The translations under genes were made by a program, and so were the position numbers. Of a DNA stretch of 64,000 nucleotides, positions 6,942-43,491 are shown one piece after another. The stretch is taken from assembly GCA_020053735.1 (NCBI GenBank), contig JAGVMP010000018.1:1-64000 (forward strand), written 5' to 3'. Below the pieces are notes generated by a model. It made no database searches. It had not been told where the DNA came from and was given only the letters and a program-made list of their open reading frames with translations. Positions within the stretch are counted from its first letter, which is position 1; every line of letters begins with the position of its first letter. Source of the DNA: Pseudomonadota bacterium. Lineage in GTDB: Bacteria > Pseudomonadota > Gammaproteobacteria > Burkholderiales > Methylophilaceae.

Positions 6942-6943
6942 TT

Positions 6944-9128: not shown

Positions 9129-9173
9129 TTTTTGATTCACAACCAAAATAGCTGGTCTTTTATCGCCACAAAT

Positions 9174-9208
9174 GTTATCATATATTATAATTTATCATAG
9201 TTGATAAC
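9174..9208. promoter_or_regulatory. Divergent promoter and operator for Wadjet operon and WYL regulator
   Basis: Perfect 7-bp arms GTTATCA (9174-9180) and TGATAAC (9202-9208) enclose an AT-rich centre. TATAAT occurs at 9186-9191 on the plus strand and again at 9184-9189 on the minus strand, so the palindrome covers the presumed -10 regions of both divergent genes. BrxR/CapW-type WYL proteins are known to bind inverted repeats in the promoters of the defence operons they control. A repressor role here is inferred. Confidence 0.6.
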
Positions 9209-9221
9209 AAAGTCAATAGAT

Positions 9222-10040
9222 ATGGCAAATACAGAAAATTCAAGAGAATCTAGATTTGCGATTATTGAATCCTTACTTCTGTGGGAAGGCGAAATCTCGA
9301 ACGAGCGAGTAAGAGAAATACTCGGAATTCAAAAGGTGCAAGCCAGTAGAGTTCTGAGTGAGTATATTGCTTACAATCCAGATCACATTGATAGCAACAC
9401 CTTACGATCCCCATATAAGGCGCAGCCAAATATAATTCCCAAGCACTCTACTGGTAGTATTGAAGAATATATTTCGATAGCAAAATTTTTTGACAGCTCA
9501 GACGAGTTAATTGTTGATGCGCGCTACGACTTGACAACACCTACAGCTGAAATCATATCTCACATATCCTCAGCAATAAGGAAACAGTGTGGCCTAAAAA
9601 TTAACTACCTTTCCATGACAAACCCTAATGGCATGAATCGCATAATTTACCCACATACAATTGTTCGTGCTGGTCGCAGATGGCATGTTAGAGCTTGGTG
9701 TGGAGAGAAAATAGAGTACAGAGACTTTGTTATTGGCAGAATCAAAAATGCATCCATTATCGAAACTGTTTCAAAAAATACTATTGTTAGTGATGTAGAT
9801 TGGAATAATAAGGTCGAATTAATAATTAGGGCACATCCAAAACTAAATAGTGATCAAGCTGCTGTTATTAAATATGAATTCTTTAGCGGCTCAACTTCAA
9901 GAAAATTATTGATAAGAAGCTGTCTTTTGCAATATGTTATCCAAGATATTAGGGCAGCTATTGATTGCGATAAAGAGTTGCCCCCAGAGTATCAATTAGC
10001 TGTATTAAATTTGTCAGATGTTAAGTCTTATCTATTCTAG
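9222..10040 (+). CDS. WYL-domain transcriptional regulator (BrxR/CapW-like) of the Wadjet operon
   Basis: A 272-aa protein from the ATG at 9222; a TTG at 9201 is in frame but sits inside the operator. The N-terminal 60 residues form a winged helix (L-L-L-W-E-G-E-I-S-N-E-R-V-R-E). The centre holds a WYL-type ligand domain with I-N-Y-L-S-M, I-I-Y-P-H-T-I-V, G-R-R-W-H-V-R-A-W and Y-R-D-F-V-I-G-R-I. This is the architecture of BrxR and CapW, repressors that guard BREX and CBASS systems and release on sensing an infection-linked ligand. It is transcribed away from jetA. It is clearly homologous to the regulator at 32005-32901, which sits beside a different defence module. Family firm, target inferred from adjacency. 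Confidence 0.85.
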   Translation: MANTENSRESRFAIIESLLLWEGEISNERVREILGIQKVQASRVLSEYIAYNPDHIDSNTLRSPYKAQPNIIPKHSTGSIEEYISIAKFFDSSDELIVDARYDLTTPTAEIISHISSAIRKQCGLKINYLSMTNPNGMNRIIYPHTIVRAGRRWHVRAWCGEKIEYRDFVIGRIKNASIIETVSKNTIVSDVDWNNKVELIIRAHPKLNSDQAAVIKYEFFSGSTSRKLLIRSCLLQYVIQDIRAAIDCDKELPPEYQLAVLNLSDVKSYLF

Positions 10041-13716: not shown

Positions 13717-15126
13717 TTGACTTACCATCCACAGCAAACCGTTAAGCTCGCCATAGATTGTTTGTCTGGTGAAATGATCCAAGCAGAAACACTTTTACAA
13801 ATTGATGAAGCAGAATTTTCAGGGATGCGTCGTTCAGCAATGTCAGCGCGTGTTGAACGAAAACGCGGTGGCAATACGGTAAGATTTTTATGTGCAATTT
13901 GTAGGCAAGCGCTGTTTTTATCTAGACGTAAAGAAGGCAATGCTAATCGCTGGTTTGTTCACGATGGCAAGTCTGAAGAGTGCCCATGGTACGAAGGTAA
14001 CAAGTTAACTCCCGAACAAACTAAGGCTTTAATTTATCGTGGGCAACAAGAAGGCGCAAAGCATCAAGAGTATAAAAATTTCTTAGCTCATTGGTTATCC
14101 AAAGATAGCCACGTCTCTAAGATCAGCCAAGAGCAAACAACTTTTAGCGAAGTTGTGAAAGGTGAATGGCGTCGCCCTGATGTCAAATGTCTTTATAAAG
14201 GCAAGCCTCTAGTATTTGAAGTTCAGTTATCTTATACGTTTTTATCTGACGTTATTGCACGAGACGAGTTTTATAAACGAGAAAAGATCTTCATTGTTTG
14301 GGTATTCTCGAAGTTTGAGCTTAATCGCGCCGCCGTAACAGACGAGGCCTTTTTTAACAGAAGAAATGTTTTTGTTTTAGACGATGAAGCACTTAAAGAA
14401 ACCACTGACCAAGGCGTATTAACTTTTAGCGGATATAGGCAACTACCTAAATTAATCAATAAAAATATTTATGATACCTGGGAATCAGGCTTTGTTTCAC
14501 TTGGTTATGTAACATTTCCAACTGATACTTTTCGACCATATTTTTACAATTATGAAGCAGAAAAAACTGCTTTATTAGCACTGCAATCAAAAGAATTACA
14601 GCGCATACAGCTGCAAACATGGCAACAAAGTGTTGATGAATTTATTGATCTTGCAATAGACCACTACGAATCTGATTGCGATGACGATACAAAGAACGCA
14701 TTGTTATCTAAAGTCGATAGGTTAAAAGATAGCTCGTATTGGCGAGAGGAATTCAAGGCGTTGAAAGAGTATGAGTTTAACGGATGGCACGGTGTTTTGT
14801 CTGTACTATTATCTATAAAGCTCAATAGACCCATTAGTTATTCAAAAGACTTTACCGTATATCAAGTAATTGAAGCCGGATTGCGGACTAGCTATAAAGA
14901 CTTTGGTAAGCACGCTAATGCAATACTATATTTGTGGGCATGTAAAACTTACAAACCTACCATGACAACTAAGAATCACTCTTGGATATCAACTTATGCT
15001 AAAAAAGTTAAAAGCTCAATCGATAACAACGAAAATATCTATAGGCGCTTTACTGGCTATGACGAAATAATTAAATTACTTTTTCCTGAGCTAAGAAAGC
15101 ACTTAGCTACAACTTTTGGCACCTAG
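13717..15126 (+). CDS. CoiA/DUF6035-like protein with predicted PD-(D/E)XK nuclease fold
   Basis: A 469-aa protein with a TTG start. Residues 59-90 hold a zinc-finger-like set C-x2-C ... W-F-V-H ... E-C-P-W, and residues 150-172 read E-W-R-R-P-D-V ... V-F-E-V-Q-L-S, a PD-(D/E)XK-type D155 ... E168-x-Q170 site as in CoiA competence proteins and DUF6035. The rest is helical. In CoiA the fold belongs to a nuclease-like protein acting during DNA uptake; DUF6035 members are mostly found in islands and may be defence nucleases. It stands alone between intergenic gaps and converges on the XRE-ImmA gene. Family call is moderate, activity inferred. Confidence 0.65.
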   Translation: MTYHPQQTVKLAIDCLSGEMIQAETLLQIDEAEFSGMRRSAMSARVERKRGGNTVRFLCAICRQALFLSRRKEGNANRWFVHDGKSEECPWYEGNKLTPEQTKALIYRGQQEGAKHQEYKNFLAHWLSKDSHVSKISQEQTTFSEVVKGEWRRPDVKCLYKGKPLVFEVQLSYTFLSDVIARDEFYKREKIFIVWVFSKFELNRAAVTDEAFFNRRNVFVLDDEALKETTDQGVLTFSGYRQLPKLINKNIYDTWESGFVSLGYVTFPTDTFRPYFYNYEAEKTALLALQSKELQRIQLQTWQQSVDEFIDLAIDHYESDCDDDTKNALLSKVDRLKDSSYWREEFKALKEYEFNGWHGVLSVLLSIKLNRPISYSKDFTVYQVIEAGLRTSYKDFGKHANAILYLWACKTYKPTMTTKNHSWISTYAKKVKSSIDNNENIYRRFTGYDEIIKLLFPELRKHLATTFGT

Positions 15127-29710: not shown

Positions 29711-30172
29711 ATGCGCTATTGGTTAATGAAATCTGAGCCCGGCGATGTTTCGATTGACGATTTGGCTGCCATGCCCAACCAAACGGTGGATTGGTATGGC
29801 GTGCGCAATTATCAAGCACGCAATTTTATGCGTGACCAAATGAATATTGGCGATGGTGTGCTTTTTTATCATTCCAATTGTGAAGTGCCTGGCGTTGCGG
29901 GTATTGCAGAAGTGGCTAGCCGTGCCTACCCAGATAGGTTGCAATTCATAAAAGGTCATAAATATTACGATGAAAAGTCTACCCAAGAAACCCCGCGCTG
30001 GGTGAATGTCGATGTGAAGTTAATCCGCAAAACGCGGCTACTTAGCCTAAAAGAAATGCGTGAGACACCCGAGTTGGCTAGTCTGCGTATTTTGCAGCGC
30101 GGCAACAGGTTGTCGATTACGCCTGTAGATCCAAGAGATTGGGAGATTATCTTGGATCTACTCAAAAAGTAA
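29711..30172 (+). CDS. EVE domain protein (thymocyte nuclear protein 1-like)
   Basis: A 153-aa single-domain EVE protein: Y-W-L-M-K-S-E-P, V-D-W-Y-G-V-R-N-Y-Q-A-R-N-F-M-R, G-D-G-V-L-F-Y-H-S-N and G-V-A-G-I-A-E-V. EVE domains bind modified bases such as methylated cytosine in DNA or RNA; they occur as house-keeping singletons and in modification-dependent restriction systems. Here it is outside the mobile element, whose left inverted repeat starts 44 bp after its stop, so I take it as a core gene. Confidence 0.93.
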   Translation: MRYWLMKSEPGDVSIDDLAAMPNQTVDWYGVRNYQARNFMRDQMNIGDGVLFYHSNCEVPGVAGIAEVASRAYPDRLQFIKGHKYYDEKSTQETPRWVNVDVKLIRKTRLLSLKEMRETPELASLRILQRGNRLSITPVDPRDWEIILDLLKK

Positions 30173-30215
30173 GGCACCAAAGAGACTGGAAATTTATATT
30201 AAAGTTGTTGAAATA

Positions 30216-30257
30216 AAAAAGCCCACAATTGTGCGAGCCGTTCACACTTGTTGTTGA
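30216..30257 (+). repeat. Left terminal inverted repeat
   Basis: Starts AAAAAGCCCACAATTGTGCG and continues to GTTGTTGA. It matches the reverse complement of 42256-42297 at 41 of 42 bases; the only difference is at 30249. It contains the inner palindrome CACAATTGTG. Confidence 0.9.
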
Positions 30258-30272
30258 TTTAAAAAAGCTGTA

Positions 30273-30302
30273 AATTCTCAAGGAAGAAATTCCTTGAGAA
30301 TT
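30273..30302 (+). promoter_or_regulatory. Perfect hairpin just before the transposase start
   Basis: AATTCTCAAGGAA and TTCCTTGAGAATT are exact complements around a 4-base loop, ending 5 bp before the TTG start codon. Its left arm contains AAGGA, so the ribosome site may be masked in transcripts that read in from outside. Insertion sequences such as IS10 and IS50 use this kind of protection; here it is inference. Confidence 0.5.
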
Positions 30303-30306
30303 CCAA

Positions 30307-32001
30307 TTGAACTTTACAAAACAATTCAAAGTTGGCCGTCCCCTTCCTGCCGAAGATAGGCAGTTCAATCATTGCCGTAATACCCTATGTAGTAACTTCG
30401 CTGTACCTGCTCTAATACCAGACGATTTCGGTGGTTATAGAAATAACGAAAGCTATACCCTGAGTGGCTCCGAGCGAGAAAAAGTACTTAAATGTACTTT
30501 CTGCCATGATCGGTATGCAATCAAAAGCAATAAAGCTGCGATTGAAGAGTACCGAAGATATGCCGCATACCTTAATCCCTTACCTAAAATTAGTTGCCCA
30601 CAGACAGAGTGTGCAGAATCAAATAGCAAAATCCAGAGATTCGGCACTTCCTCATCAGGCTCTACACGATATCGTTGCAAGAATTGCGGTAAAACTTTCT
30701 CCAAGTCTTCTAACCCGACCTGGAAACAAAAGGCTCCCGAGAAGAATTCGCTCATCCTGCGATTGCTGATTAACAAGATGCCCATGCGCCGAATGCTAGA
30801 AACGGCGAGCATCTCACCGCAGACCCTTTATCGCAAGATCGAGTTTTTCCAAACTCAGTGTCTCAAGTTCGCTGCGCGTCATGAGAAAAAGCTGGAACAT
30901 ATGGATTTCCCAGTAATGCATGTGAGTGTCGACCGTCAGGATTACTTAGTCAATTGGGGAAGTCATGTGGACAGGCGCAGTTTCATGATGCATGCAGTTG
31001 CTTCGTCTGATGGTAAATCTGGATTTGTATTTGGCGTACATCCAAATTTTGATCCGACACTGAATCTAATGGAAGTGGAGCTGGATGCTAGAGAGCGTAA
31101 TGATTATGCACTTCCTACGATATACCGACATTACTCAAGACTTTGGTTAATGGGCGATTACGAAAAACGTCCGGTCACAGAACGCTTTAGAGCGCGAGAA
31201 AAGGTTGCATCAGATGATGCCGACCTTGCAGATGATAAGGAGGAAACCCCTGAGGGAAAAATCCCATCTACCGGCATTCAGGTTCGCCATGAGTATGTTC
31301 AGTACGGGCACTTTCTTTTATTAAACAAATTCTTACAAAAAGCGAAGCATGTTAATTTTTCTCTCGATCAGGATCCGGGATTACGCCAGTCTTGTATCGC
31401 TGTATTTAATAGACGGATCAAAAAAGGTACATGTGATGTTTTTCATCTACGGATTGATAAGCAGCTAACTGTAGATCAAAAGGATTTAGTCATTGCTGCG
31501 GCTAAAAATGCTCTAGATAATTATCGTCGCGATAAAAAAATGTCCCGGGATGCAGCTGCAATCGAGCTCATTGAGAAAGCCATCCTTACAATAGACCCTA
31601 ATCTGAAAACCACGGATCGTTGGATATCGCATCCATTGCCTAATAGAGCTGAGCCTAATAGGGCTGTCTGTCATCTTACTCCACGCCCCAATCAGGACGT
31701 TAAAGCTTTATCCAATCACATCATGGATGTAAGCCTTAAAAATATTGATCGATTCTTTATGTTAATTAGGCGGCGAATTTCATTACTTGAGCGCCCAATT
31801 AAAACACCTTCCAGTGCCAACCGGGCATGGCATGGGTATTCGCCTTATGAGCCCTTGGTTGTATGCCAGGTATTAGATATATTTCGTGTGATATTCAATT
31901 ATCATCTAGTGGGTGAAGACAAGCGCACAACCGCTATGCGTATTGGCCTTGCTCATCGACCATACACTCTGGACGAAATTTTAGCTGAACCTAGGAATTA
32001 A
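30307..32001 (+). CDS. Zinc-ribbon DDE transposase of the 12-kb element
   Basis: A 564-aa protein. The first 135 residues hold several zinc-ribbon Cys pairs (C-x4-C at 23-28, C-x2-C at 63-66, C-P-Q-T-E-C, then C-K-N-C-G-K-T-F-S at 124-132), as in IS1 InsA and IS1595-type proteins. A helix-turn-helix-like segment follows (R-R-M-L-E-T-A-S-I-S-P-Q-T-L-Y-R). A DDE-type core is suggested by V-S-V-D-R (D209), F-S-L-D-Q-D-P (D354/D356) and an Arg/Glu-rich helix near residue 500, with the ending N-Y-H ... K-R-T-T-A-M-R-I-G-L-A typical of that superfamily. It is twice the length of IS1595 transposases. The TTG start is uncertain. Confidence 0.8.
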   Translation: MNFTKQFKVGRPLPAEDRQFNHCRNTLCSNFAVPALIPDDFGGYRNNESYTLSGSEREKVLKCTFCHDRYAIKSNKAAIEEYRRYAAYLNPLPKISCPQTECAESNSKIQRFGTSSSGSTRYRCKNCGKTFSKSSNPTWKQKAPEKNSLILRLLINKMPMRRMLETASISPQTLYRKIEFFQTQCLKFAARHEKKLEHMDFPVMHVSVDRQDYLVNWGSHVDRRSFMMHAVASSDGKSGFVFGVHPNFDPTLNLMEVELDARERNDYALPTIYRHYSRLWLMGDYEKRPVTERFRAREKVASDDADLADDKEETPEGKIPSTGIQVRHEYVQYGHFLLLNKFLQKAKHVNFSLDQDPGLRQSCIAVFNRRIKKGTCDVFHLRIDKQLTVDQKDLVIAAAKNALDNYRRDKKMSRDAAAIELIEKAILTIDPNLKTTDRWISHPLPNRAEPNRAVCHLTPRPNQDVKALSNHIMDVSLKNIDRFFMLIRRRISLLERPIKTPSSANRAWHGYSPYEPLVVCQVLDIFRVIFNYHLVGEDKRTTAMRIGLAHRPYTLDEILAEPRN

Positions 32002-32004
32002 GAA

Positions 32005-32901
32005 TCAAGAATTAGAGAAGTCGAATTCTTTGATAATGGAATGATCGTCCAGTGTGATTCGAGCATTCGTCTCATTGAGATCCAATCGATGCAATTGCAA
32101 AAAGTAATTCACAACACAGCGACGTAATGTAACGCTCCACACCCACCCTTTAGTGCTTTTGATCATGCCATATTCTTTAGCAATGACATCTTGCTGATGA
32201 GTCGATAACGTTTTCGCAGGAATAACATCTACAATTACTTTTTCATTCCAGCCCGTATCTTTTTCTGCTGCTGCCGAAGTAGGTTTGTCTTTTTGTAGCT
32301 GAATATCTCGTTTTGAAGTTCTAGAGCCTGGTGCTTTAAGCAAACGTGACAGCACATAATCACCAAAAGCTTGATGCACACTATCGAAAGCACGCACATG
32401 CCAGCGGAACCCATTATGCACAAAGGCATGTGGCCAGAGCACACGTTCCTGAGGATGCGATGTTCTCATTGATTGGTAGGCTACTTTAACACCGTTGCCG
32501 GATTTGATGGCGCGCGTCAGTAACTGGAAAATATCTCTATCAATCACACCTACAGCTGTGGGTATAATGTCGCCCGCAGTTGGTCCAGGCATACCTTGAA
32601 TGACGTCTGTATCTCCCGATTCACAATAAAGTCTTAACAAACTCAGATATTCATGAGGCGATCCATTTGAAATGGATGGCTTGAAGTCTGGTCCCGCCTT
32701 ATAAATTCTATTAGAGATGTCATAAGTAAGATTGTCCGGATATAAGTTTCTATAAGCCGCAAAATCTTTAGTGATGTGATTGGTTGTTACCTGGAATGCA
32801 TCGGACACGCGCTGCCGTGCGACAAAGCCTTCCCAGCAGGCGACGGATTCCAGGAACCGTAATCGTCTAAGTTGAGAAGGATTAAATTCAGTATTTTGCA
32901 T
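32005..32901 (-). CDS. WYL-domain regulator (BrxR/CapW-like) of the methyltransferase module
   Basis: A 298-aa protein with an N-terminal winged helix (R-L-R-F-L-E-S-V-A-C-W-E-G-F-V-A-R-Q-R-V) and a central WYL-like domain (K-V-A-Y-Q-S-M, R-V-L-W-P-H-A-F-V, G-F-R-W-H-V-R-A-F, D-Y-V-L-S-R-L-L-K-A). Segment by segment it parallels the Wadjet-linked regulator at 9222-10040, so the two are homologues in different modules. It is divergent from the methyltransferase; a palindrome at 32940-32958 lies in the shared gap. A repressor controlled by an infection-linked ligand is the likely role. It ends 3 bp from the convergent transposase stop. Confidence 0.87.
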   Translation of the reverse strand: MQNTEFNPSQLRRLRFLESVACWEGFVARQRVSDAFQVTTNHITKDFAAYRNLYPDNLTYDISNRIYKAGPDFKPSISNGSPHEYLSLLRLYCESGDTDVIQGMPGPTAGDIIPTAVGVIDRDIFQLLTRAIKSGNGVKVAYQSMRTSHPQERVLWPHAFVHNGFRWHVRAFDSVHQAFGDYVLSRLLKAPGSRTSKRDIQLQKDKPTSAAAEKDTGWNEKVIVDVIPAKTLSTHQQDVIAKEYGMIKSTKGWVWSVTLRRCVVNYFLQLHRLDLNETNARITLDDHSIIKEFDFSNS

Positions 32902-32908
32902 ATTAGTA

Positions 32909-32958
32909 TTGACCTATGCATTAAATGTATCATAATGTTATTAATTGCAGCAATTAAT
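32909..32958 (+). promoter_or_regulatory. Promoter and palindromic operator of the methyltransferase operon
   Basis: TTGACC (32909-32914) and CATAAT (32931-32936) are spaced by 16 bp. Directly after the -10 lies the palindrome ATTAATTGC-A-GCAATTAAT (32940-32958), covering the likely start of transcription. The divergent WYL protein is the natural candidate to bind it. Confidence 0.6.
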
Positions 32959-32991
32959 TTAATTTAACTAATCAAAATGATTACATAAAAA

Positions 32992-35900
32992 ATGAATAAT
33001 GGATTAAATCATTGGTTTGAGAGACTGGGCTATGATGCCTTCCCTCAGGCACTCCATTATTCTTCCGAAGCAATTAATCGCACCCATCCCTATTCTGCAG
33101 AGTTAAATGCGCTGATGGATCCGCACGGGCAAGTTCGTGCTTTGGCCGTTTTCGAGATTGACGGTGTACCGGGCGTTTGTTTTGTTGCTGATGACGGGGA
33201 TAAAGAAAGTTACGCAAACCTTCAAGCCAAGGTTTGGAATCAAGGCCTCATTTCTTTGGTACTAGTGCTTGGTGAAGAAGAGTTGCGGGCTTTACCGACC
33301 GTACCAGGCGTCCTGGGTTATGAGACTTTGTCAGCAGATGCCGCTTGCCCATCGTCCACTTACTCAGCATGGGGTATTCAATCTTCTCAGCTTATTGAAC
33401 GTCATCCGGATTGGTTTCAGCCAGATAAAAGAGTAGACCGTGCGCTATTGAAAAACCTGCAGCTCGGTGTGCTAGCTTTAGAAGACTTAAATTACGCTAT
33501 CGAAGATGCGCAGTATTTGATGGCACAAATCTTATTTGTATCGTATCTGGAACATCGCGGCATTATCGGTGATGAATACCGTTCAGCGCGTAAGGTCAGG
33601 AGTTTTCATGAACTGGTGAGATCCCGTGACCATAAAGGTTTAGCTTATCTATTTACAGTACTCAAGCAGGACTTTAATGGCGACTTCTTAGAGCCTAGGT
33701 CAGATTCAACAGTTGCTTGGCATTTACTGTCCGAGGGTGCGTTCGCCATATTGGATGACTTTTTATCTCATACAGATTTGCAGACTAAGCAACAATCGTT
33801 CTGGGGATATGATTTCAATTACATTCCTGTAGAACTTTTGTCTGGCCTGTATGAATCCTTCTTAGGCGAGGATAAGAGTTCATTTGGAGCTTACTATACG
33901 CCGCGTCATCTGGCCAACCTTGCGGTTGAAGAAGCATTCCGTGGTTTGGACGATATCACTCAGCAAGTCGTATGTGACGGGGCTTGCGGGTCAGGCATTT
34001 TATTGACCACTGCATTTCGTCGTATGCTGGGTGCAGCCGAAGCAAAAGCAGGAGCCGCTTTACCGCTTAAAGCACGTTCGGAGCTATTAGTCGGGCATAT
34101 TTTTGGCGGGGATGTAAATAAGTCAGCCTGTCAGGTAACTGTCTTCAGTTTATATCTGTCTCTACTTGAGAATCTAATCCCAAAAGACATCATTTCCTTA
34201 ACCGATGAGGCACATGTGCGCCTGCCTAATTTATTGGGTAAGAATATATTTTATGGATCCGCAGGCGATTTCTTCGGCGATGGCTATTTGGGCGAATATA
34301 GCCATAGCACTCCAAAACCGACGATACTTATTTCCAATCCACCTTGGAAACGCTCTCCAGAAGTGGAAGTTGAATCGTTCGAAAAATGGATTGCGCGCAG
34401 CAGTCATTACAATATCACCCAAAATCAAATCGCCATTGCTTATGCTTATCGTGCATCTGAAGTGTTGGCCGCCCAAGCGCGTATATGTCTTTTGATGCCG
34501 GCAGGTGCTTTCCTTAAAGCTTCTAACGCAGCCTTTGTCGAGACCTGGTTGAATGAAGTCAATCTGTTGAGACTCATTAACTTTTCTGACCTGAGGAATC
34601 TATTGTTCCCGGCTGCCAAGCATCCATGTGTACTGGCTGTAGCAGAAACCCAGAATATTTGGCTAGAAGCAGGTCGGCAAACAACAAGAACCTTTGATTA
34701 CTTTGTGCCTAAAGCTGATTTAAGTCTTGCATATGGCCGACTTACCATTCACGCTTCGGATCGTCATAAACTTGCTGTATCTCATGCCCAGCTAGATCCT
34801 GGTGTATTGCGCAATCTCTACTGGGGGTCGAAGTTTGAAATGGCGCAATTAGCAATTCTCAGGATGCGCGGCATTATTGGCAATCTGAGTAGAGGCAAAG
34901 AAGCACGATTCGTTGCCCGCAAAGGTTTCCACTTAACGGATAACAACAGACCTAAATTAAGTGCTGAACGGTTCAGATCTTCGTTATTTATTCATGCAAA
35001 GAAATTCCCTTCGAAAGGTCCATACCTCCCCTCCGGTCTGCTGGAAAAGTTCCCGGCAGAGTACTTAACCGTAGGTGATTATGGTTCGGATGAGTTGTAT
35101 GAAGGTGCGCGCGTAATCTTCCCTGACGGCTTAACTACCAGTCGTCGTATTCGTGCATGTTTTGCAAATCGAAAATTCAATTTTAGCAACTCACTGGGTT
35201 GTATCCGGGATCGACAAAACGACGATAATTTAATGCGGTTTTTAGCAGCATATCTGAGTTCCGATCTTGCTACTTATTTCGTGTTGTTGACTGCACCTAC
35301 TGCTGTATTAGAACGTACGCAAATCAAGGTTAGCGAAGTCGAAGAGTTGCCATTCTATTTGCCTGAAGATCACCCTGATCCGGAACGTGCCCAAGCAATC
35401 GTGGCTGAAATAGCCGCAATTCTGAAAAAAGGCGAAGATGGAAATCTCGATGATTTCATGAGTGTGGAAGAATCGACTTCTCTTATAGTTGAACGCCTGC
35501 TTGCGGAATACTTTGATATTTCTGGGACATTGTCACAAGTCATTCGCGAAGTGAATGATATCGTCATTCAGGCCGTACAGCCTACGACACTCAAATGGTT
35601 TCCTACTGCATTGCAACGCATGCCGGTTAAATCAGTATTAGAAGATTATGCTCAAACGCTTACTTTAGAGCTTAGAAGATATCGCGACCAACTGCAGGGT
35701 AACGGCGATTTCGAAACTTCCGTTCGCTACTGGCATGCTGGCGCCGCTGATGGTCTAGGTATCGTGACTATTCGAGTAACTGACTCTAATCATAATAATA
35801 TAAGTTCGAATGTAGTTGCTGAAGCCGTTGATGTAATACTTGAGCGGCTCAGGGAATTGGACTTGCTACAAGGAATTACACAAGGCGGATTGGCATTAGC

Positions 35901-36042
35901 ATCGGATGTACTGGTACAGAGTGCTAATGAAATTATATTCGCAAAGCCACTTATTCATAGATTATGGCTCACTTCTGCGGCACTGGATGATGCAGTACGC
36001 ATACTAGCTTCTGCCCAGTCAAAAACGAAAGCAGCATCATGA
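32992..36042 (+). CDS. Large N6-adenine-type DNA methyltransferase of a restriction-modification-like pair
   Basis: A 1016-aa protein. The SAM-binding and catalytic motifs of gamma-class amino-methyltransferases are clear: F-G-A-Y-Y-T-P-R-H-L-A (motif X region, about 298-309), V-C-D-G-A-C-G-S-G (motif I, 327-335) and I-S-N-P-P-W (motif IV, to 452). An additional N-terminal 160-residue domain and a long C-terminal part, which includes a target-recognition-like stretch (about 600-830), resemble type IIG/PglX-type enzymes, but no nuclease site is seen in the chain. The next gene overlaps its end by 4 bp and encodes a likely nuclease, so the two form a unit. It should protect host DNA by base methylation. 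Confidence 0.88.
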   Translation: MNNGLNHWFERLGYDAFPQALHYSSEAINRTHPYSAELNALMDPHGQVRALAVFEIDGVPGVCFVADDGDKESYANLQAKVWNQGLISLVLVLGEEELRALPTVPGVLGYETLSADAACPSSTYSAWGIQSSQLIERHPDWFQPDKRVDRALLKNLQLGVLALEDLNYAIEDAQYLMAQILFVSYLEHRGIIGDEYRSARKVRSFHELVRSRDHKGLAYLFTVLKQDFNGDFLEPRSDSTVAWHLLSEGAFAILDDFLSHTDLQTKQQSFWGYDFNYIPVELLSGLYESFLGEDKSSFGAYYTPRHLANLAVEEAFRGLDDITQQVVCDGACGSGILLTTAFRRMLGAAEAKAGAALPLKARSELLVGHIFGGDVNKSACQVTVFSLYLSLLENLIPKDIISLTDEAHVRLPNLLGKNIFYGSAGDFFGDGYLGEYSHSTPKPTILISNPPWKRSPEVEVESFEKWIARSSHYNITQNQIAIAYAYRASEVLAAQARICLLMPAGAFLKASNAAFVETWLNEVNLLRLINFSDLRNLLFPAAKHPCVLAVAETQNIWLEAGRQTTRTFDYFVPKADLSLAYGRLTIHASDRHKLAVSHAQLDPGVLRNLYWGSKFEMAQLAILRMRGIIGNLSRGKEARFVARKGFHLTDNNRPKLSAERFRSSLFIHAKKFPSKGPYLPSGLLEKFPAEYLTVGDYGSDELYEGARVIFPDGLTTSRRIRACFANRKFNFSNSLGCIRDRQNDDNLMRFLAAYLSSDLATYFVLLTAPTAVLERTQIKVSEVEELPFYLPEDHPDPERAQAIVAEIAAILKKGEDGNLDDFMSVEESTSLIVERLLAEYFDISGTLSQVIREVNDIVIQAVQPTTLKWFPTALQRMPVKSVLEDYAQTLTLELRRYRDQLQGNGDFETSVRYWHAGAADGLGIVTIRVTDSNHNNISSNVVAEAVDVILERLRELDLLQGITQGGLALASDVLVQSANEIIFAKPLIHRLWLTSAALDDAVRILASAQSKTKAAS

Positions 36043-36707
36043 GGGCAACTGGCACGTGGGCCATGGCATTACCTTTGCCCGATACGGAAAGGATCGTGAC
36101 ATGTCTGGTCGATGGCTTTCACCAACTAAAGGCCTTTCCAAAGACCTATAAGTTTGCAGAAAAAGAAACTAACCTGACAAAGCGGTTGACCTTGCACTTA
36201 CAGAATACACAAAGTGTTGGGCTGGCTATCGGATTTTGGGATTTCGAGGTGAGTACCGATACAAAGAACGAGGATGACCCCAGAAGGCTGGATATCCGTT
36301 TCTCAACCGTTGTGAATAATTCACAAAAAGTATTGCTGATCTTCGAATGTAAAAAGCTTGGTACACCAACGTCTCCGCAAGCTACACGACATCGACGTTC
36401 GTATATTGATGAAGGTATTGCCAGGTTTGTAAAAGGAAGTTATGCGCCTACTGAACCTCTGGGGTTCCTCATAGCTTTTGTAGAATACAAAACCAGCACT
36501 GCTATGGTTTCACTTAAGCAGGCATTGGGTAAGTCAACCATACAAGGCGTGCTTAATATGATCAAGCATTCCAATAACCAATACATTGCCGAACCACCTG
36601 ATAGGTTCGCAAGTCATGCTTTATTCTCGACTGAACATGTAAGACAAATCAATGGTGCCAATGTTACTCAGACCATTGCGCTATATCATATACCGCTGAC
36701 TTTTTAA
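36039..36707 (+). CDS. Predicted PD-(D/E)XK nuclease partner of the methyltransferase
   Basis: A 222-aa protein starting within the methyltransferase stop (ATGA overlap). Residues 83-106 read R-L-D-I-R-F-S ... L-L-I-F-E-C-K-K-L, giving D85 ... E103-x-K105, the PD-(D/E)XK metal site of many restriction enzymes. A preceding helix (T-N-L-T-K-R-L-T-L-H-L) may carry the supporting acidic/basic residues. No other domain is recognised. Coupling to the methyltransferase suggests the cleavage subunit of a restriction system. A hairpin terminator follows at 36721-36751. Confidence 0.75.
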   Translation: MRATGTWAMALPLPDTERIVTCLVDGFHQLKAFPKTYKFAEKETNLTKRLTLHLQNTQSVGLAIGFWDFEVSTDTKNEDDPRRLDIRFSTVVNNSQKVLLIFECKKLGTPTSPQATRHRRSYIDEGIARFVKGSYAPTEPLGFLIAFVEYKTSTAMVSLKQALGKSTIQGVLNMIKHSNNQYIAEPPDRFASHALFSTEHVRQINGANVTQTIALYHIPLTF

Positions 36708-36720
36708 TTCATATTTTCTA

Positions 36721-36751
36721 TTTTAGTCATCCATTAAATTGATGACTAAAA
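36721..36751 (+). terminator. AT-rich hairpin after the nuclease gene
   Basis: TTTTAGTCATC and GATGACTAAAA are exact 11-bp complements around a 9-base loop, 13 bp after the nuclease stop. It may end the methyltransferase-nuclease transcript. The gap 36708-37071 otherwise holds the attC-like repeat and AT-rich sequence with no gene. Confidence 0.5.
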
Positions 36752-36847
36752 ATACTCCCAATTTCGGACACTTGCCCTTACATGCGCTTGGGCATTAGGT
36801 TTTTGCAATTTCCCATAATAGTGAAGTATAATTTCACCAGGTCACAA

Positions 36848-36897
36848 TCTTAACGTCCCGCAACCGGTCTACAGAGTCGGCAAATGCCGTGTTAAGT
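36848..36897 (+). repeat. attC-like structured repeat, copy 3
   Basis: Plus-strand orientation. The ends TCTTAAC and GTTAAGT fit the integron R boxes (GTTRRRY exactly, RYYYAAC with one change), and pairing extends outward as CACAA/TTGTG with one extra base. The core is almost identical to copy 1 over 36 bp. It lies 140 bp after the nuclease stop and 174 bp before the FRG gene, so it separates two cargo modules of the 12-kb element. Confidence 0.55.
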
Positions 36898-37071
36898 TGT
36901 GGCCTTTATCTTTTCATCCCCCTTCTCAAGCAAATCTTTTCATATTCTCCACGTAGTTAAATACTTGCTATTAAGCAAATTTAATTAATTGGATTATTAT
37001 GAGCATGTAAAATAAAACAATCGCTCTGCGACGGTCATCACGCCTGATAAAAATAATGAAAAATAATCATC

Positions 37072-38373
37072 ATGTATAACTTATTTGTGACAGCTCAATA
37101 TGATGCTTGGGAACAGCCTTTCTATCAGTATGATAGAAGTAGATTTCTCGAGTTTACTAATGAAAATGTCGCGAATAAATTCAAAACACTTACTGAAAAC
37201 CGTTTAGCTCAACTCAAGTCACTTCCCTGCCTTTTTGCCTATGAAGGGGAAACTGAAGATGTTCGTATTGGTTATCTAACAGCTATTAAACTAAGAGATA
37301 AGTCGTCAATTCTTATTGAATATGAATTTTTGCCAAATGTTCCGCCAATCCCATATGCGACTATTGAATCAATAGCACCACTACTAGATATTCGTAATTG
37401 GGAAATGAGTAGGACTCATTGGGCCATCAAAGATGAAGATCTGATCAAAAGACTGATTGCTGCATCTGTTTTAACAAACAATCAATTGTTGCCACTTAAC
37501 CAACTCCAAGTATCCGAAAGTTTACCTAATAAATCACCCTCTTCTAGGCCAGTAAGTACCTTACAAGGCTTTATTGAAAAAGTGATTAAAAGCGATAGGA
37601 GGGAAGGATGGGAAATATTCTATCGTGGACATTCAGATAAAGATAATTACAAACTTGAGCCATCCCTATTTAGAAAAGACAAGCATGGTAACTACAAATA
37701 TCTTGATAATGAACATATTCTCTATCGAGAGCTGATCGTATCAAATTCATCGGATTTTAACTCAGATGAAAATACGCTTGAGCGCTTAGTCAGGATGCAG
37801 CATTACTCATTACCGACTAGACTTTTGGATATAACCTCCAATCCATTAATTGCACTCTATTTTGCGTGTAAATCGAATATTGAGGCTAATGGCGAAGTGA
37901 TTGTTTTCTCTTTGAAAAGTGACCAAATCAAGTACTTCGACTCAGATACAGTAAGTTGCCTAGCTAATTTAGCCCGACTATCGAAAAGCGACAAAGATGC
38001 TATTGATTTTACAATTGCAGATTTCAATAAGCAGCCTTCTATTGAACATTTGACCCATTTCATCAGAGCTGAGAAGTCTTATTTCCTACCTATAATTAAA
38101 GCAGAACACCTGAAAAAGATTATCTGTGTAAAAAGCAAAAAAAGTAACAACAGGATCACATTTCAATCAGGAGCATTTTTATTGTTTGGGATCGATTCTG
38201 TATTAGCCGAAGAAGGTACACCTGAAATTGAAGTGACTAGAATAACAGTATCGAACAAGGTCTCTATCCTGAGAGAACTGGACCTTCTCAATATCAATGA
38301 AAGCACCGTATTCCCCTATATAGAAAACTCAGCTAAATACGTTGCCAAAAAATACGAGTTCCAAGTAACTTAG
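37072..38373 (+). CDS. FRG-domain protein, first gene of a candidate defence operon
   Basis: A 433-aa protein. Residues 165-285 form an FRG domain: I-F-Y-R-G-H-S-D, E-P-S-L-F-R, and M-Q-H-Y-S-L-P-T-R-L-L-D-I-T-S-N-P-L-I-A-L-Y-F-A-C. The first 130 residues are a separate alpha/beta domain (G-Y-L-T-A-I-K-L ... L-L-D-I-R-N-W-E-M-S-R-T-H-W-A-I-K-D-E-D-L) seen N-terminally in some defence-linked proteins. The C-terminal part is unrecognised. FRG proteins are frequent in defence islands but their biochemistry is not known. It leads a three-gene set (gaps 34 and 15 bp), so the products probably act together. Confidence 0.85.
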   Translation: MYNLFVTAQYDAWEQPFYQYDRSRFLEFTNENVANKFKTLTENRLAQLKSLPCLFAYEGETEDVRIGYLTAIKLRDKSSILIEYEFLPNVPPIPYATIESIAPLLDIRNWEMSRTHWAIKDEDLIKRLIAASVLTNNQLLPLNQLQVSESLPNKSPSSRPVSTLQGFIEKVIKSDRREGWEIFYRGHSDKDNYKLEPSLFRKDKHGNYKYLDNEHILYRELIVSNSSDFNSDENTLERLVRMQHYSLPTRLLDITSNPLIALYFACKSNIEANGEVIVFSLKSDQIKYFDSDTVSCLANLARLSKSDKDAIDFTIADFNKQPSIEHLTHFIRAEKSYFLPIIKAEHLKKIICVKSKKSNNRITFQSGAFLLFGIDSVLAEEGTPEIEVTRITVSNKVSILRELDLLNINESTVFPYIENSAKYVAKKYEFQVT

Positions 38374-38407
38374 CTCTACCCCAAATAAACAAAGTCTTCA
38401 TATCTTT

Positions 38408-40693
38408 ATGATCACAACCCGTATTGAGAAGCTAAAATTTATCGTAGAAGAAATGCATCTGGCATTTCTAATGGCAACTCATGTACCAGACCATTTCGTT
38501 GCACGGACACTTGCACGTCATATATTGATAAGAGCAGAGAATCTGATCGAGCATGCGCGTGGACTTCGTAAACCGTTAAATATTGGGGGTTACAACACCA
38601 ATCATTTCAATATCACTAAAGAAGCCTATGCAGATAATTTCAATGAATACTTCAGAACTTCCCGGGATAAATTAGGTGCACATGTCCAAGACTTCGACTT
38701 TGGTAAACGACTAGAGCTTTGGAATGATATTGAAATCACAAAGATTGAGTACTTTGTAGAGGGTGCTAAAGAGGTTTACCAGAGTTTAGCTAGCATGAGC
38801 TTGCCGGGTTACATTCAATTTACGGAGCCAGTTGAGCTTACTGACCCATCTTTAAAACAATTATTGCAAACATATAATCTTGCTGAGGAAAACATTGAAT
38901 CGGTTGAGATAGGTGCAGATTCACTTGCAATGACGCGTCCAAATACGACAGCGGCATTGAATTTTACCGACGTGCACTCCCGCGCATCACAACTGGCACT
39001 TATCCGTCGTTGGATAAAACTGCAAAATGAACTATTGAGTCAGTTAGTCCCGTATCCAAACCTCATCCGCATATTGAAAACGAGGGTTATTACCGATATT
39101 GTTAGTTTCAGCGATTGTTTGGTAACGAGAGCGGTAACCAGTGGCGCTCCGCAAGAGATGGACGGACTAAACACACTTATAACTACCGGAGGCTCATCTG
39201 CAACTGCAATTGATGAGTTTTTGGCAGTATCCAATTTCCAGCAAGAATTACAGTATATTAGAGCTGTTCGTGACCATATCGGTGCTCACATTGAAATAGA
39301 TGAGTCGATGACAATTGGTTCATTAGTAACTTCCTTGGATAAATATGATTTGGAAGAGGCTTCGACCTTTTATGGGTTGATAGAAAAAGTCTTTATCAAA
39401 ACATGTTACAGCATTATCTATTTACGTATGTATGCAGCGGATGGTGAGCGTATGTATGGGATTTTAACCTCAAAAGCTAATGTGGGCGTTCCGTTTGTGA
39501 ATGCTACCAACACAGGTATTGAACCATCCCTCCCAATTAAAGCGCCAATTTATGACGAAATCACATATCAGAAACAGTTAAGCCTTTGGTTGAATGACAG
39601 TAAGGACCAGAGAGGCTATGCACGGCATTATTTCTACAATGCATTCTGTGGTTCAGAAATTAGAGAAATTATTGAAGAAAAAGAGACATTCGGTTCCAGT
39701 TATCGACTGTCGAGACACGAGTTTCGCGAAGTGCATAGCTTTATACTCACTACCTTGGCTAGCCAATTAACTGATTTGACCTTTACTAAAATTCTTGAGT
39801 TATTAGTTTCCTGTGGAAATGGTTACCCATATGCTTTAGCAGAAGTACTCGTACGCTACGGTAAGAATAAAATTCCTGAAATAAGGGTATGGGGTTTATG
39901 TCGCGCTCTTGGGGAAATTACCAGCTATCCTCATGCTTCAGCAATACAATATCTCGAACTACATATGAAGGCAGTGAGGCTGGAAATAAGGTTAGAGTCT
40001 GTCATTGCACTATTCAAGATTTTTGTGAGATCTGAGGGACTATTACGAATCAATAACCAAAATAAAATCAGCCGTGAATATGACGACTATGTGAGTGGGT
40101 TAATGACGGCCTTAGATTCGTCTGAAGAACTCTTATTGTGCAAACTGGCCTTTGCTAGCAAGCTCAGTGGTGGCGAACTTCGTACATATTTAAAACCTTT
40201 CGCCGATAACTATCATAGTCTCCAAAACGATATTAAGCATTTATGTCTTCCATATTTGAATGATGATGTTGAATCAGCCAAAACTAGTGTACTGCAACAA
40301 TTGATTGATACCCACGACTATGTAGGTGTTTGTGTTCATTTGGCGGTTAATCTGGAAAATGATGTTCGTAAGCAATTCCGCGAGACCTTGCTGAGTGCAT
40401 GTAGCTCTGGGTTGATTGTCACCACAGGGCATGACCAGGCCTCTCGCCATTTGGCCATGTGTTTCCTTATGCAAGAAGAGCATGACAAGGCGCTTATAGT
40501 TTCTGAAGACATTGCTTTACGTAATCCTGACTGGCTTGGTGCCCAGATTCTGGTTGCGCAAATAATGGGAGGAATGAAAGAACGAGAAGACCAAGCAATT
40601 AGGAAAGTTAAGGAAATACGTCAATATTTCAAAGTGGATTCAACAAATGAAGCTTACTTGTCCCAAATCGAACAAGCTTTATCAACAAGATAA
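38408..40693 (+). CDS. Large protein with two HEPN-type Rx5H motifs
   Basis: A 761-aa all-helical soluble protein. Two helical segments each carry the same motif: S-R-D-K-L-G-A-H-V (R86-H92) and V-R-D-H-I-G-A-H-I (R288-H294). Such R-x4-6-H motifs are the active site of HEPN ribonucleases, which work as dimers; two in one chain could form an internal dimer. The C-terminal half (about 420-760) is made of repeated helical pairs, HEAT- or TPR-like (A-L-I-V-S-E-D-I-A-L-R-N-P-D-W near the end is TPR-like). No known family is recognised. Its place between an FRG and a zinc-finger gene suggests the effector of an unnamed defence operon. Confidence 0.65.
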   Translation: MITTRIEKLKFIVEEMHLAFLMATHVPDHFVARTLARHILIRAENLIEHARGLRKPLNIGGYNTNHFNITKEAYADNFNEYFRTSRDKLGAHVQDFDFGKRLELWNDIEITKIEYFVEGAKEVYQSLASMSLPGYIQFTEPVELTDPSLKQLLQTYNLAEENIESVEIGADSLAMTRPNTTAALNFTDVHSRASQLALIRRWIKLQNELLSQLVPYPNLIRILKTRVITDIVSFSDCLVTRAVTSGAPQEMDGLNTLITTGGSSATAIDEFLAVSNFQQELQYIRAVRDHIGAHIEIDESMTIGSLVTSLDKYDLEEASTFYGLIEKVFIKTCYSIIYLRMYAADGERMYGILTSKANVGVPFVNATNTGIEPSLPIKAPIYDEITYQKQLSLWLNDSKDQRGYARHYFYNAFCGSEIREIIEEKETFGSSYRLSRHEFREVHSFILTTLASQLTDLTFTKILELLVSCGNGYPYALAEVLVRYGKNKIPEIRVWGLCRALGEITSYPHASAIQYLELHMKAVRLEIRLESVIALFKIFVRSEGLLRINNQNKISREYDDYVSGLMTALDSSEELLLCKLAFASKLSGGELRTYLKPFADNYHSLQNDIKHLCLPYLNDDVESAKTSVLQQLIDTHDYVGVCVHLAVNLENDVRKQFRETLLSACSSGLIVTTGHDQASRHLAMCFLMQEEHDKALIVSEDIALRNPDWLGAQILVAQIMGGMKEREDQAIRKVKEIRQYFKVDSTNEAYLSQIEQALSTR

Positions 40694-40708
40694 GCACCAA
40701 GGATAAGT

Positions 40709-41644
40709 ATGTCTGATTATGCAATTACAGAATATGACGATCAACCAATGTCAGCTTGGGAGTTCAGATATTTATACCTTAGAGAAGGTGTTGAATACGA
40801 AAACTTCTTCTGTCCATATTGCGACATAAAATTATGCGCTTATCTGATATACGTCGATGGTGAAGGTGTCCGTTCCCCTTACTTCTCCGCAAGATGGGAG
40901 CGTCATAAATTTGGTTGTGATGGCAAAGCTATATATGTTGATGCTTCAGTAAAGAAAGTAGCAACAGCATACTATGGTACTCACGAACTAGATTTTCCCG
41001 AAGCTTTAACTGCACGCCCACCGACACACAAGATAAAAACAAAAACTATCAAATCTCAATCGTTAAACCTCTCAAATGCTGAGGTATTTGAACGTAGGAA
41101 AAAGGCGGGATTATTAGGTAGGCCAGTATCCAAAACATATTTGCTACAGCCTATTGTGGAAATGTATAACAGCGTGTGGGCTGATGGTTATAAAAAAGTA
41201 GATGAGAATGTCTGGAATGCTAATAATCGCGTGTCAATGACAACTAATATTTTATCCGGAATGCCGATATTATTAGAAGACAAAACTGAATATAACGAAG
41301 CTTTTAGAAGTCCATTATTTTTGGATAAATACAGATGCAGAATTTATCATGGCCATGGATTCGTCCATGTCTTCCCAAATGGCTTCATTCTAACCAGCGA
41401 AAAGAGCGCTAGAGTAGAAGGTCAAACTTACACGTTTAAGATAAAAATTTATGAAGCTTTGATTAATAATGATTCGCCTATGTCTCATTTGGCTCTATTC
41501 GAAGCTTTAGCGTCTTATGCAATGAATAAAACAGCAATTCGTTGGTACGCTTATGGCACTCCATCCCTTGTTGAAGATATATACGAATTGCTGGTTATTA
41601 ATCTTGACTATTTGTACATTAAAAAGCCTTTTCAGAAGAAGTAA
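40709..41644 (+). CDS. Zinc-finger protein, third gene of the FRG/HEPN operon
   Basis: A 311-aa protein. The N-terminal region has F-F-C-P-Y-C-D-I-K-L-C ... P-Y-F-S-A-R-W-E-R-H-K-F-G-C, a C-x2-C ... H-x3-C zinc-binding set like the start of CoiA-type proteins and of the DUF6035-like protein at 13717. The middle is basic (T-H-K-I-K-T-K-T-I-K) and the C-terminal half alpha/beta without catalytic motif that I can see. It starts 15 bp after the HEPN-type gene. Possibly a nucleic-acid sensor for the operon; this is inference. Confidence 0.6.
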   Translation: MSDYAITEYDDQPMSAWEFRYLYLREGVEYENFFCPYCDIKLCAYLIYVDGEGVRSPYFSARWERHKFGCDGKAIYVDASVKKVATAYYGTHELDFPEALTARPPTHKIKTKTIKSQSLNLSNAEVFERRKKAGLLGRPVSKTYLLQPIVEMYNSVWADGYKKVDENVWNANNRVSMTTNILSGMPILLEDKTEYNEAFRSPLFLDKYRCRIYHGHGFVHVFPNGFILTSEKSARVEGQTYTFKIKIYEALINNDSPMSHLALFEALASYAMNKTAIRWYAYGTPSLVEDIYELLVINLDYLYIKKPFQKK

Positions 41645-42035
41645 CATTCAAAATAGCTTGCTCCCAGCCTGGCAGATTATCTCCAGTACAGTCCAAAGGA
41701 TGAAGTATTGTTGTGTTTTCTCCGAAGGCTTTTTCTAACAAGCCCAATAATGCGATCATATGAGCATAATCAGGTATATTCATGAATACATCAGCTCGCT
41801 TAGCTAACGCTTTCTTACAAGCATCATAGTCCAAGTGAATTTCACCGAATTCAATTATTACATTCAACAAAATATCTCGTGTAATTTGTGCTCCAGTGGC
41901 TAGCTCAATAAAAAACTCGGAGCCATGAGCACCCAGTACTGGGTAAATCCCTTCTTTTTGCGGTTGTATTGATTCTTTAATAAAATTAACGTATTGGCTC
42001 AGTATCTCTGCAGTACTACATCCTTCTGTATGCAT
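41619..42035 (-). CDS. Small hypothetical protein at the right end of the element
   Basis: About 138 aa from the ATG at 42035, which has GGAGA at a good distance; longer starts (42047, 42095) lack one. It is acidic and helical with no known domain (Y-V-N-F-I-K-E-S-I-Q, D-Y-A-H-M-I-A-L-L-G-L-L). It converges on the zinc-finger gene and overlaps its last 26 bp. As it points inward from the right end it may be a separate cargo gene or an antitoxin-like partner; nothing decides this. Confidence 0.55.
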   Translation of the reverse strand: MHTEGCSTAEILSQYVNFIKESIQPQKEGIYPVLGAHGSEFFIELATGAQITRDILLNVIIEFGEIHLDYDACKKALAKRADVFMNIPDYAHMIALLGLLEKAFGENTTILHPLDCTGDNLPGWEQAILNVTSSEKAF

Positions 42036-42080
42036 CTTTGTCTCCATGTGTCTTACAAAATTAGTTATCAGTGAAAAATG

Positions 42081-42119
42081 AAAAAGCCACAACACCTTTT
42101 TTGATGTTGTGGCTTTGGT
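42081..42119. terminator. Hairpin near the right end of the element
   Basis: AAAGCCACAACA and TGTTGTGGCTTT are exact complements around a T-rich loop, flanked by A on the left and T on the right. It can act as a terminator in either direction and may shield the element from outside transcription. Confidence 0.6.
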
Positions 42120-42196
42120 ATTACGGGACCGTAAAGTACGGTCATTTTTGGATTAGCTAACTATGAAGTCAGAGCTATATACTCTTATAAACCATT

Positions 42197-42232
42197 AAAA
42201 AAGCCATACTATTTCTAGTATGGCTTAGTTTA
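42197..42232. terminator. Second hairpin near the right end
   Basis: AAGCCATACTA and TAGTATGGCTT pair around TTTC, with A/T flanks. Another GACCGTA / TACGGTC pair lies at 42127-42143. The 150 bp inside the right inverted repeat thus hold a series of hairpins and no gene. Confidence 0.5.
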
Positions 42233-42255
42233 TTACTAAGTTTTTCACACATTGT

Positions 42256-42297
42256 TCAACAACTAGTGTGAACGGCTCGCACAATTGTGGGCTTTTT
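42256..42297 (-). repeat. Right terminal inverted repeat
   Basis: Reverse complement of 30216-30257 with one mismatch (42264). It ends 16 bp before the beta-propeller gene's stop codon, so the insertion left that gene intact. Confidence 0.9.
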
Positions 42298-42312
42298 AAA
42301 TGAGCAGACTAA

Positions 42313-43491
42313 TTATTTGGCTGCGGCGTCCAAACTCCCCATGGTCTTCGGATATGTCACTAAGCCCCAAGGCATACCTTTTACTTCAATTTGACCAGTT
42401 TGTGCCAGTGTCTCTGCGTCGTAGACTAATACTGCATCCGATTTCCCGCAAGCTAGTAAAATCTGTTTGTTGTCTGGCGTAAAACTAAAGTGCCAGCAAC
42501 GCTTGCCTGTTGGTGCTTCTTTTAGCTTAACAAAACTTTTTGCGTCAAACACTTCTAACAATTGCGATTTATTGCTGGCCACATAAATATGTTTACCACT
42601 TGCATCATAGGCAATGCCGTAAGGTGTGTCGCCAGTGGGTACAGTGCGTAATAAATTAAAGTCTTTGTCTAGCACCATAAATTTGTTGCCGTATTCAAGC
42701 GTAGCAAGGTAAGTATTGCCGTCGGGCGAAACTTTAATGCCGCGTGGGCGATCACCATATTCATGGGTTTTGATGGTTTTTAGTAATTCACCACTGGCAA
42801 TATCATGCACCGTGACCGTATTATCAGCTTCGTTGGTAATGACTAGTTTGCTATTGTCAGCAGAAAATTCAATGCCTTCAGTTTCTGGGCCGCCAGTGAT
42901 TTCACGTATTTTTTCACCTTTTTCTAAATCAACCACAGCAATTTTTGCTGGTACTGCATCGTCGTCATCTTCTTCCTCAGCAGGTTTTGAGCCTGGTTTT
43001 GGTGGTGGGCCACCTTTAGCGCTAGGTTCAGAAGAAATGTAAGCAAAATTACCATTAATGCGCACAAACTCAGGGTTTTTCCCGACATGAATTTGCTGTG
43101 TTACTTCGCCAGTTGCAGTGTCGATGATTGAGATGCTTTCATTTTCGCGTGTGGCAACGATGAGTTTTTTGCCATCATCAGTCACACCCAAGCCGCGAGG
43201 CGCAACCGCTTTTACGTCAATTGTTTTTATAATTTTCATGGTGGCAAGGTCAATTACACTTACGCCAGCATCTTGGCTAGTCACATAAGCCACACCTTTA
43301 TTAGCAGCATCGCCAGTAGGTCCGCTGGTATTGGCTTCCACGGCATCTGATTTTGCCTCGGCCGCGTTTTCAGTATTTGTTTCGGTTGCTTTATTGCAAG
43401 CACTTAAGCCTGCTACTAAAGCTAGCAACACTAAACTTATGCGTGTTTTATTTAGTGTTGTATTCAGCGCTGTATTTGACGTTACGTCCAT
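42313..43491 (-). CDS. YVTN-type beta-propeller lipoprotein, PQQ-catabolism-associated type
   Basis: A 392-aa protein with a lipoprotein signal (V-L-L-A-L-V-A-G-L-S-A-C) preceded by an unusually long polar N-terminus. The mature part has about seven propeller repeats of the form I-A-V-V-D-L-E-K-G-E, V-T-V-H-D-I-A-S-G-E-L-L-K-T-I and L-V-Y-D-A-E-T-L. An acidic linker E-E-E-D-D-D-D-A is inserted in one loop. Propellers of this kind accompany PQQ-dependent alcohol oxidation in methylotrophs and are probably periplasmic. The exact partner is not in the window. The right inverted repeat of the 12-kb element lies just after its stop. Confidence 0.8.
   Translation of the reverse strand: MDVTSNTALNTTLNKTRISLVLLALVAGLSACNKATETNTENAAEAKSDAVEANTSGPTGDAANKGVAYVTSQDAGVSVIDLATMKIIKTIDVKAVAPRGLGVTDDGKKLIVATRENESISIIDTATGEVTQQIHVGKNPEFVRINGNFAYISSEPSAKGGPPPKPGSKPAEEEDDDDAVPAKIAVVDLEKGEKIREITGGPETEGIEFSADNSKLVITNEADNTVTVHDIASGELLKTIKTHEYGDRPRGIKVSPDGNTYLATLEYGNKFMVLDKDFNLLRTVPTGDTPYGIAYDASGKHIYVASNKSQLLEVFDAKSFVKLKEAPTGKRCWHFSFTPDNKQILLACGKSDAVLVYDAETLAQTGQIEVKGMPWGLVTYPKTMGSLDAAAK

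Follow-up and report, generated by a model that had tools for sequence, protein, structure and literature searches.

In Cas13, two HEPN units in one chain form one RNase. The stretch of Methylophilaceae DNA analysed here (64,000 nucleotides of contig JAGVMP010000018.1, hereafter the window) encodes at 38408..40693 (+) a protein of 761 amino acids (aa) that is likewise predicted to have two HEPN units per chain, followed by an alpha-solenoid, whereas no CRISPR array and no sequence relation to Cas13 were found. Its gene, here called the middle gene, lies between those of a 433-aa FRG-domain protein (37072..38373, +) and a 311-aa protein (40709..41644, +), and all three are carried by one transposon.

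The HepT/HEPN toxins and AbiV resemble the 761-aa protein in the four-helix fold predicted for its second unit and in the Rx4-6H motif, and the toxicity of one of them, SO_3166, requires R97 and H102 (PMC4621449). These are, however, single-domain proteins of 130-150 residues, whereas two units and a solenoid share one chain here, and SO_3166 has a nucleotidyltransferase antitoxin, whereas no antitoxin gene was seen at this locus: the adjacent nucleotidyltransferase that characterises HEPN-MNT pairs is absent from the element's eight scanned proteins. CnuE of the type III-A CoCoNuT systems is likewise a predicted non-CRISPR defence effector with two HEPN domains, but is described as an elongated winged helix-turn-helix fusion with one shortened RxH motif and McrB/McrC homologues nearby (PMC11090510); here both motifs are full, the McrB domain is absent from the element, and the eight scanned proteins include no McrB-type GTPase partner of the kind that marks CoCoNuT type III-A. 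The LA2681 and C6orf70-type proteins listed in Table 1 of PMC3710099 also combine HEPN with TPR helical repeats, although their description there mentions no second HEPN domain and the 761-aa protein matched no family. Tha of Staphylococcus prophages is a HEPN anti-phage protein with tail proteins as its cue (PMC11087260), a likeness by description only. With regard to the 433-aa neighbour, this is a plain member of the PDC-S15 FRG proteins of PADLOC, from which it differs in nothing notable. No description of the 761-aa protein, of the three-gene arrangement or of its carrier was found among the open-access titles and abstract openings listed.

Two conserved motifs in the 761-aa protein

The three adjoining open reading frames (ORFs) are separated by 34 and 15 bp, as the original prediction had stated, and the 761-aa protein contains RDKLGAH at residues 86-92 (38663-38683) and RDHIGAH at residues 288-294 (39269-39289), 202 residues apart from R to R. 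The first motif is in HEPN-like unit 1 (residues 1-135, 38408..38812, +) and the second in HEPN unit 2 (residues 188-345, 38969..39442, +), while residues 384-761 (39557..40690, +) comprise helices, a beta-hairpin and a HEAT/TPR-like alpha-solenoid, less conserved and proposed to be a sensor; the helical-repeat C-terminus described earlier is thus backed by structure prediction. Both motifs stand above chance, because their R and H are invariant in all nine sequences at identities down to 34%, and in all nine the R is followed by the polar N, D or H typical of the Rx4-6H motif of HEPN proteins. Searched against solved structures, the predicted unit 2 shows the four-helix HEPN fold and matches HepT/HEPN toxins and AbiV (SO_3166 5yep, 8yuf, YutE 1ylm and AbiV 9bj5), and predicted unit 1 has its helices and its motif in the same order and position as unit 2.

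Other results are less clear on two HEPN units in one chain. No HEPN chain is among the matches listed for the model of residues 1-145, and those listed for the full-length model are solenoids, again without HEPN. The sequence comparison of the two units is weak (hhalign E 0.03, probability 1.6%), with the motifs in register. Judged by composition alone, the motif count stands out only moderately: the protein has 3 instances of R[NDH]x3-5H, where 2000 residue shuffles average 0.44 (0.75% of them reaching 3), and 7 of the less strict Rx4-6H, where the average is 3.6 (5.2% reaching 7). A HEPN fold is thus predicted for unit 2 and less certain for unit 1. The proposed internal duplication, plausible as far as the predicted fold goes, is weak in sequence.

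Five further Rx4-6H strings occur in the protein, four of which are not conserved. The fifth, RTLARH (R33-H38; 38504-38521) in helix 2 of unit 1, is a third string invariant in 9/9 sequences, but the residue after R33 is T, A, M or L, unlike the N, D or H of the two main motifs. Of the upstream Ex3[KR] acidic motif, which many HEPN families have, a clear invariant instance was not seen by eye in the homologue alignment. The protein has no significant family in Pfam, PADLOC, NCBIfam or PHROGs, nor a match in the PDB by sequence, and TubZ_C (E 0.14) and phrog_27750 (E 0.24) were regarded as chance. In the PDB, a nine-row profile matched repeats of the alphaRep type (best E 0.036) and part of a helicase (E 0.068). 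When the nine members were searched against Pfam, two of them matched DIL (E 0.024), while HEAT_2 (E 0.0072), AbiU2 (E 0.48) and four more families were each matched by a single member.

Relatives of the middle gene and their surroundings

A tblastn search of 72,556 plasmid records gave a single relative of the middle gene, in Agrobacterium pusense (L002, 36% identity), and a search of 50,697 phage records gave none. A pattern scan of genome contigs from a two-row alignment, of low sensitivity as only two patterns were used, gave seven relatives among 172 pattern matches, from Rhodoblastus (51%), Methylobacterium (49%), two Paraburkholderia (44% and 50%), Bradyrhizobium (49%), a Caulobacteraceae metagenome-assembled genome (34%) and Rhizobium (38%); the initial genome-contig scan and four viral-contig scans gave no matches. 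In samples of whole genomes the gene was confined to the genome that holds the window (369 genomes of the class and 398 of the phylum) or to that Bradyrhizobium (a sample of 367). From these few matches in plasmid, phage, contig and genome samples, the middle gene is uncommon, with a patchy distribution among alpha- and betaproteobacteria.

The neighbours scanned with PADLOC at these loci were chosen by hand, with no random-locus control for enrichment of defence genes. In L002 the middle gene is located between Gabija (GajA E 3.5e-213, GajB 4.1e-159) and Ietas (8 neighbours scanned), and in L004 it is adjoined by a CBASS cyclase (7.8e-142) and 2TM effector (3e-84; 2 scanned). A ThsB-like TIR gene (4.7e-33; 4 scanned) is found near it in L008 and an OloB-like gene (1.2e-54; 5 scanned) in L006. 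The matches in L007, all to AAA, were weak and partial (best E 8e-5; 5 scanned), and L009 (2 scanned), L003 and L005 (1 each) gave none. By eye, the loci share no neighbour beyond a small ORF pair upstream of the middle gene common to the two Paraburkholderia loci (L005:6540-7665 and L006:6930-7932). The Paraburkholderia homologue at L006:8001-11558 is interrupted by an insertion of ~1.3 kb.

The three genes were not found together at other loci

The FRG label of the 433-aa protein is confirmed by Pfam (PF08867, E 8.2e-22, score 78.4 bits, cut-off 25), and PADLOC identifies it as candidate defence gene PDC-S15 (E 1.3e-103). The FRG signatures FYRGHS and QHYxLPTRLLD are conserved in 5/5 sequences, and the best match of the FRG profile in the PDB was not below E 0.027. 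The 311-aa protein had been called a zinc-finger protein: CPYC (residues 35-38) and H66xxxC70 can be seen by eye and make it a putative one, but no significant match was obtained in Pfam, PADLOC, NCBIfam, PHROGs or the PDB, TIGR01785 (E 0.064, 11.7 bits against 317) being regarded as chance.

Neither the FRG nor the 311-aa query gave a tblastn match at E 0.01 in the eight other middle-gene loci, which reach about 8-9 kb upstream and, downstream, ~0.1 kb in L009, 0.9 kb in L005, 2.3 kb in L004, 4.2 kb in L008, 6 kb in L006 and 8-9 kb in the others. The 311-aa query, the only one used there, was also unmatched in the complete carriers (seven whole genomes and one plasmid), an empty result that shows little without a positive control, although the same query recovers itself in the order-level search. 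Relatives of the 311-aa protein were absent from the 72,556 plasmid records, the 50,697 phage records and the viral contigs, and among 399 genomes of the order were found in its own genome only. FRG relatives are frequent on plasmids (415/72,556 records), and from the plasmid searches for the other two genes, none of these 415 has the 311-aa gene and no more than one can have the middle gene. The four FRG neighbourhoods opened (L011-L014) contain neither; the closest of them, in Paraburkholderia phymatum (54%), adjoins IetA/IetS-like genes.

Because of this lack of co-occurrence, each of the three genes appears to be a separate module. The original prediction had proposed one defence operon and had tied this beforehand to the homologues occurring together; as they do so in 0/8 middle-gene loci and 0/4 FRG loci, we rejected a conserved operon, and a three-gene defence system is not supported. 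What is retained is the HEPN-like double-motif protein, outside any such system.

A transposon in a terminator hairpin

The three genes appear to be side by side only because all of them ride one transposon. The region 30100-42400 contains a single inverted-repeat pair of at least 16 nt, which is 42 nt long and 98% complementary. Its left arm (30216..30257, +) consists of half a terminator hairpin (30216-30233) and a 24-bp transposon end (30234-30257), and its right arm (42256..42297, +) of the other transposon end (42256-42279) followed by the remainder of the hairpin. The element proper (30234-42279; 12,046 bp, 24-bp ends) is flanked by the 10-bp direct repeat CACAATTGTG, the left copy of which (30224-30233) closes the left hairpin half, with the right copy at 42280-42289. 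The transposase (30307..32001, +) has a zinc-ribbon N-terminus and residues D209, D354 and E495, which are invariant in 8/8 aligned sequences and were taken by eye as the DDE triad, so that the terminal inverted repeats, flanking direct repeat and transposase of a DDE transposon are all present. Membership of the IS1 family is not supported (NF033558, 41 bits against a cut-off of 100, residues 101-187 only). The distance between the flanking EVE-like and threonine deaminase-like genes, named by eye, is 13.6 kb in the window versus 1.4-1.5 kb in the four relatives, including two congeners, that were picked from 41 genomes searched. The inverted repeats, the direct repeat and the empty sites in relatives show that a transposon of ~12 kb entered an intergenic terminator within its hairpin.

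Its cargo comprises, next to the three genes, a WYL-domain regulator (32005..32901, -), a type IIG restriction enzyme-methyltransferase (32992..36042, +; PADLOC E 3.1e-230), a 222-aa ORF (36039..36707, +) that overlaps the type IIG gene at its end and for which no family match was found, and a convergent 158-aa ORF (41619..42095, -), for which no confident family was found. The tightly spaced genes of the element may be co-transcribed.

Relatives of the transposase were found in 9/72,556 plasmid records and 4/349 genomes of the order, its own included, and ten loci were examined, leaving out plasmid records H36, H39 and H40 and a broken copy in G791. Inverted ends are clear in six of the ten, and a weak pair in a seventh (L051), no better than chance pairs, was accepted for its likeness to the other ends; in L039, L040 and L041 inverted repeats were sought but not found. 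Four family members have the ends C(A/G)AGCC, and four clean insertions have direct repeats of 9-10 bp. Restriction-modification genes are present in three elements: that of the window, with its type IIG enzyme; L050, a second element of the genome that holds the window (8258 bp, direct repeat of 9 bp), with type III genes (Mod E 6e-81, Res E 1.8e-11); and L051, where a type IIG-like enzyme is encoded (E 1.4e-28). L042 is a bare 2-kb element; the family-library scans of cargo left out L038, L043 and L052. In L040 a Mokosh MkoC-like gene (E 2.1e-157) follows the transposase, but since the ends of that element were not found this is adjacency and not proven cargo.

Terminator-like hairpins with a central direct repeat were present in three of the six empty sites that were folded. 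For the window's element, L050 and L052, to which these three belong, the z-scores against mononucleotide shuffles were -5.2, -8.0 and -7.0, and 2.7%, 1.7% and 0.3%, respectively, of random 50-nt pieces taken from the same sequence were equally stable. The L038 site has outer stem arms only (z -2.4) and no direct repeat, the L042 (z -1.4) and L051 (z -0.1) sites are not terminator-like, and L043 resembles a fourth terminator-hairpin case by eye from its ends. As the pattern fits the window, L050 and L052 but not L042 and L051, the family seems to target terminator hairpins often, though not exclusively.

Other defence-like genes in the window

A four-gene set at 1243-9146 (-) resembles Wadjet JetABCD by gene order and sizes as judged by eye, the JetD-like protein being the only one of the four with a PADLOC match (E 1e-13). 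Beside it is a divergent WYL regulator (9201-10040, +) with a PADLOC match, which is related to the WYL regulator of the transposon (26% identity); each of the two is oriented away from a defence gene or a set of defence-like genes. A 469-aa protein (13717-15126, +) with a zinc-finger-like N-terminus and a nuclease-like region has no PADLOC match, and we take it to be CoiA-like.

Proposed function and alternatives

On balance we lean towards the 761-aa protein being a stand-alone, guide-free abortive-infection RNase, with its neighbours as separate modules and all of them as transposon cargo. The two HEPN units of one chain would pack together, and both R-x5-H motifs would then form one composite RNase site, comparable to the halves of HEPN dimers. 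The variable C-terminal alpha-solenoid may keep this site off and release it upon a phage cue, after which the activated enzyme would cleave cellular and phage RNA, and growth would stop. A wider claim, of which we are rather doubtful, is that the protein represents an undescribed immune RNase family with its own HEPN pair, a guide-free functional analogue of Cas13 that a fast-diverging alpha-solenoid would switch, and that it is shipped, along with restriction and other defence modules, by transposons which often target the hairpins of intrinsic terminators.

Two HEPN units per chain, as in Cas13, could also indicate a guided RNA nuclease. We rejected this and give it hardly any weight, as no direct repeat family of at least 16 nt was found in 30100-42400, the sole Rfam match in the region is sub-threshold (Trp_leader, E 0.17, at the left end), and Cas13 is absent among the matches listed in the PDB profile search. 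A role in RNA binding or as a scaffold, with HEPN folds but no nuclease activity, would be in line with the loss of the motif in some HEPN families (PMC3710099), but the R and H of both units have been kept in 9/9 sequences despite divergence to 34% identity, and we consider this unlikely.

The remaining alternatives give the neighbours a role. In this lineage the three genes might still be one system, with the FRG protein (ART superfamily) modifying or signalling to the RNase and the zinc-finger protein sensing or regulating; the shared strand and close spacing, possibly within a single transcript, would suit this, as would the ART-like enzymes found with HEPN in restriction-modification operons (pEK499_p136-like (B) family, Table 1 of PMC3710099). 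Against it are the lack of co-occurrence at all eight other middle-gene loci, the unmatched 311-aa protein in all eight genomes or records carrying the middle gene, and the four FRG relatives without the other two genes, which together make it distinctly unlikely. Less probable still is a toxin-antitoxin pair of a double-HEPN toxin and the 311-aa (or FRG) protein: the 15 bp spacing is tight and HEPN/MNT-type toxins come with antitoxins (PMC4621449, PMC7641770), but an antitoxin partner was rejected because no 311-aa or FRG homologue is located beside the middle-gene homologues, their genomes lack a 311-aa relative, and the only common neighbours seen by eye are the small ORFs of the two Paraburkholderia loci.

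If the stand-alone RNase reading is right, one gene suffices to encode this immune effector, an RNase with both halves of the active site in one chain. The analysis also corrects a likely misreading, as the three-gene arrangement looks like shared carriage by a transposon and not like a system, and the carrier suggests one route by which unrelated defence genes reach tight tandem, as well as a choice of target, the terminator hairpin, that spares the host genes. On the wider claim, cargo could be gained at such sites without gene breakage, and elements of this kind would build defence islands.
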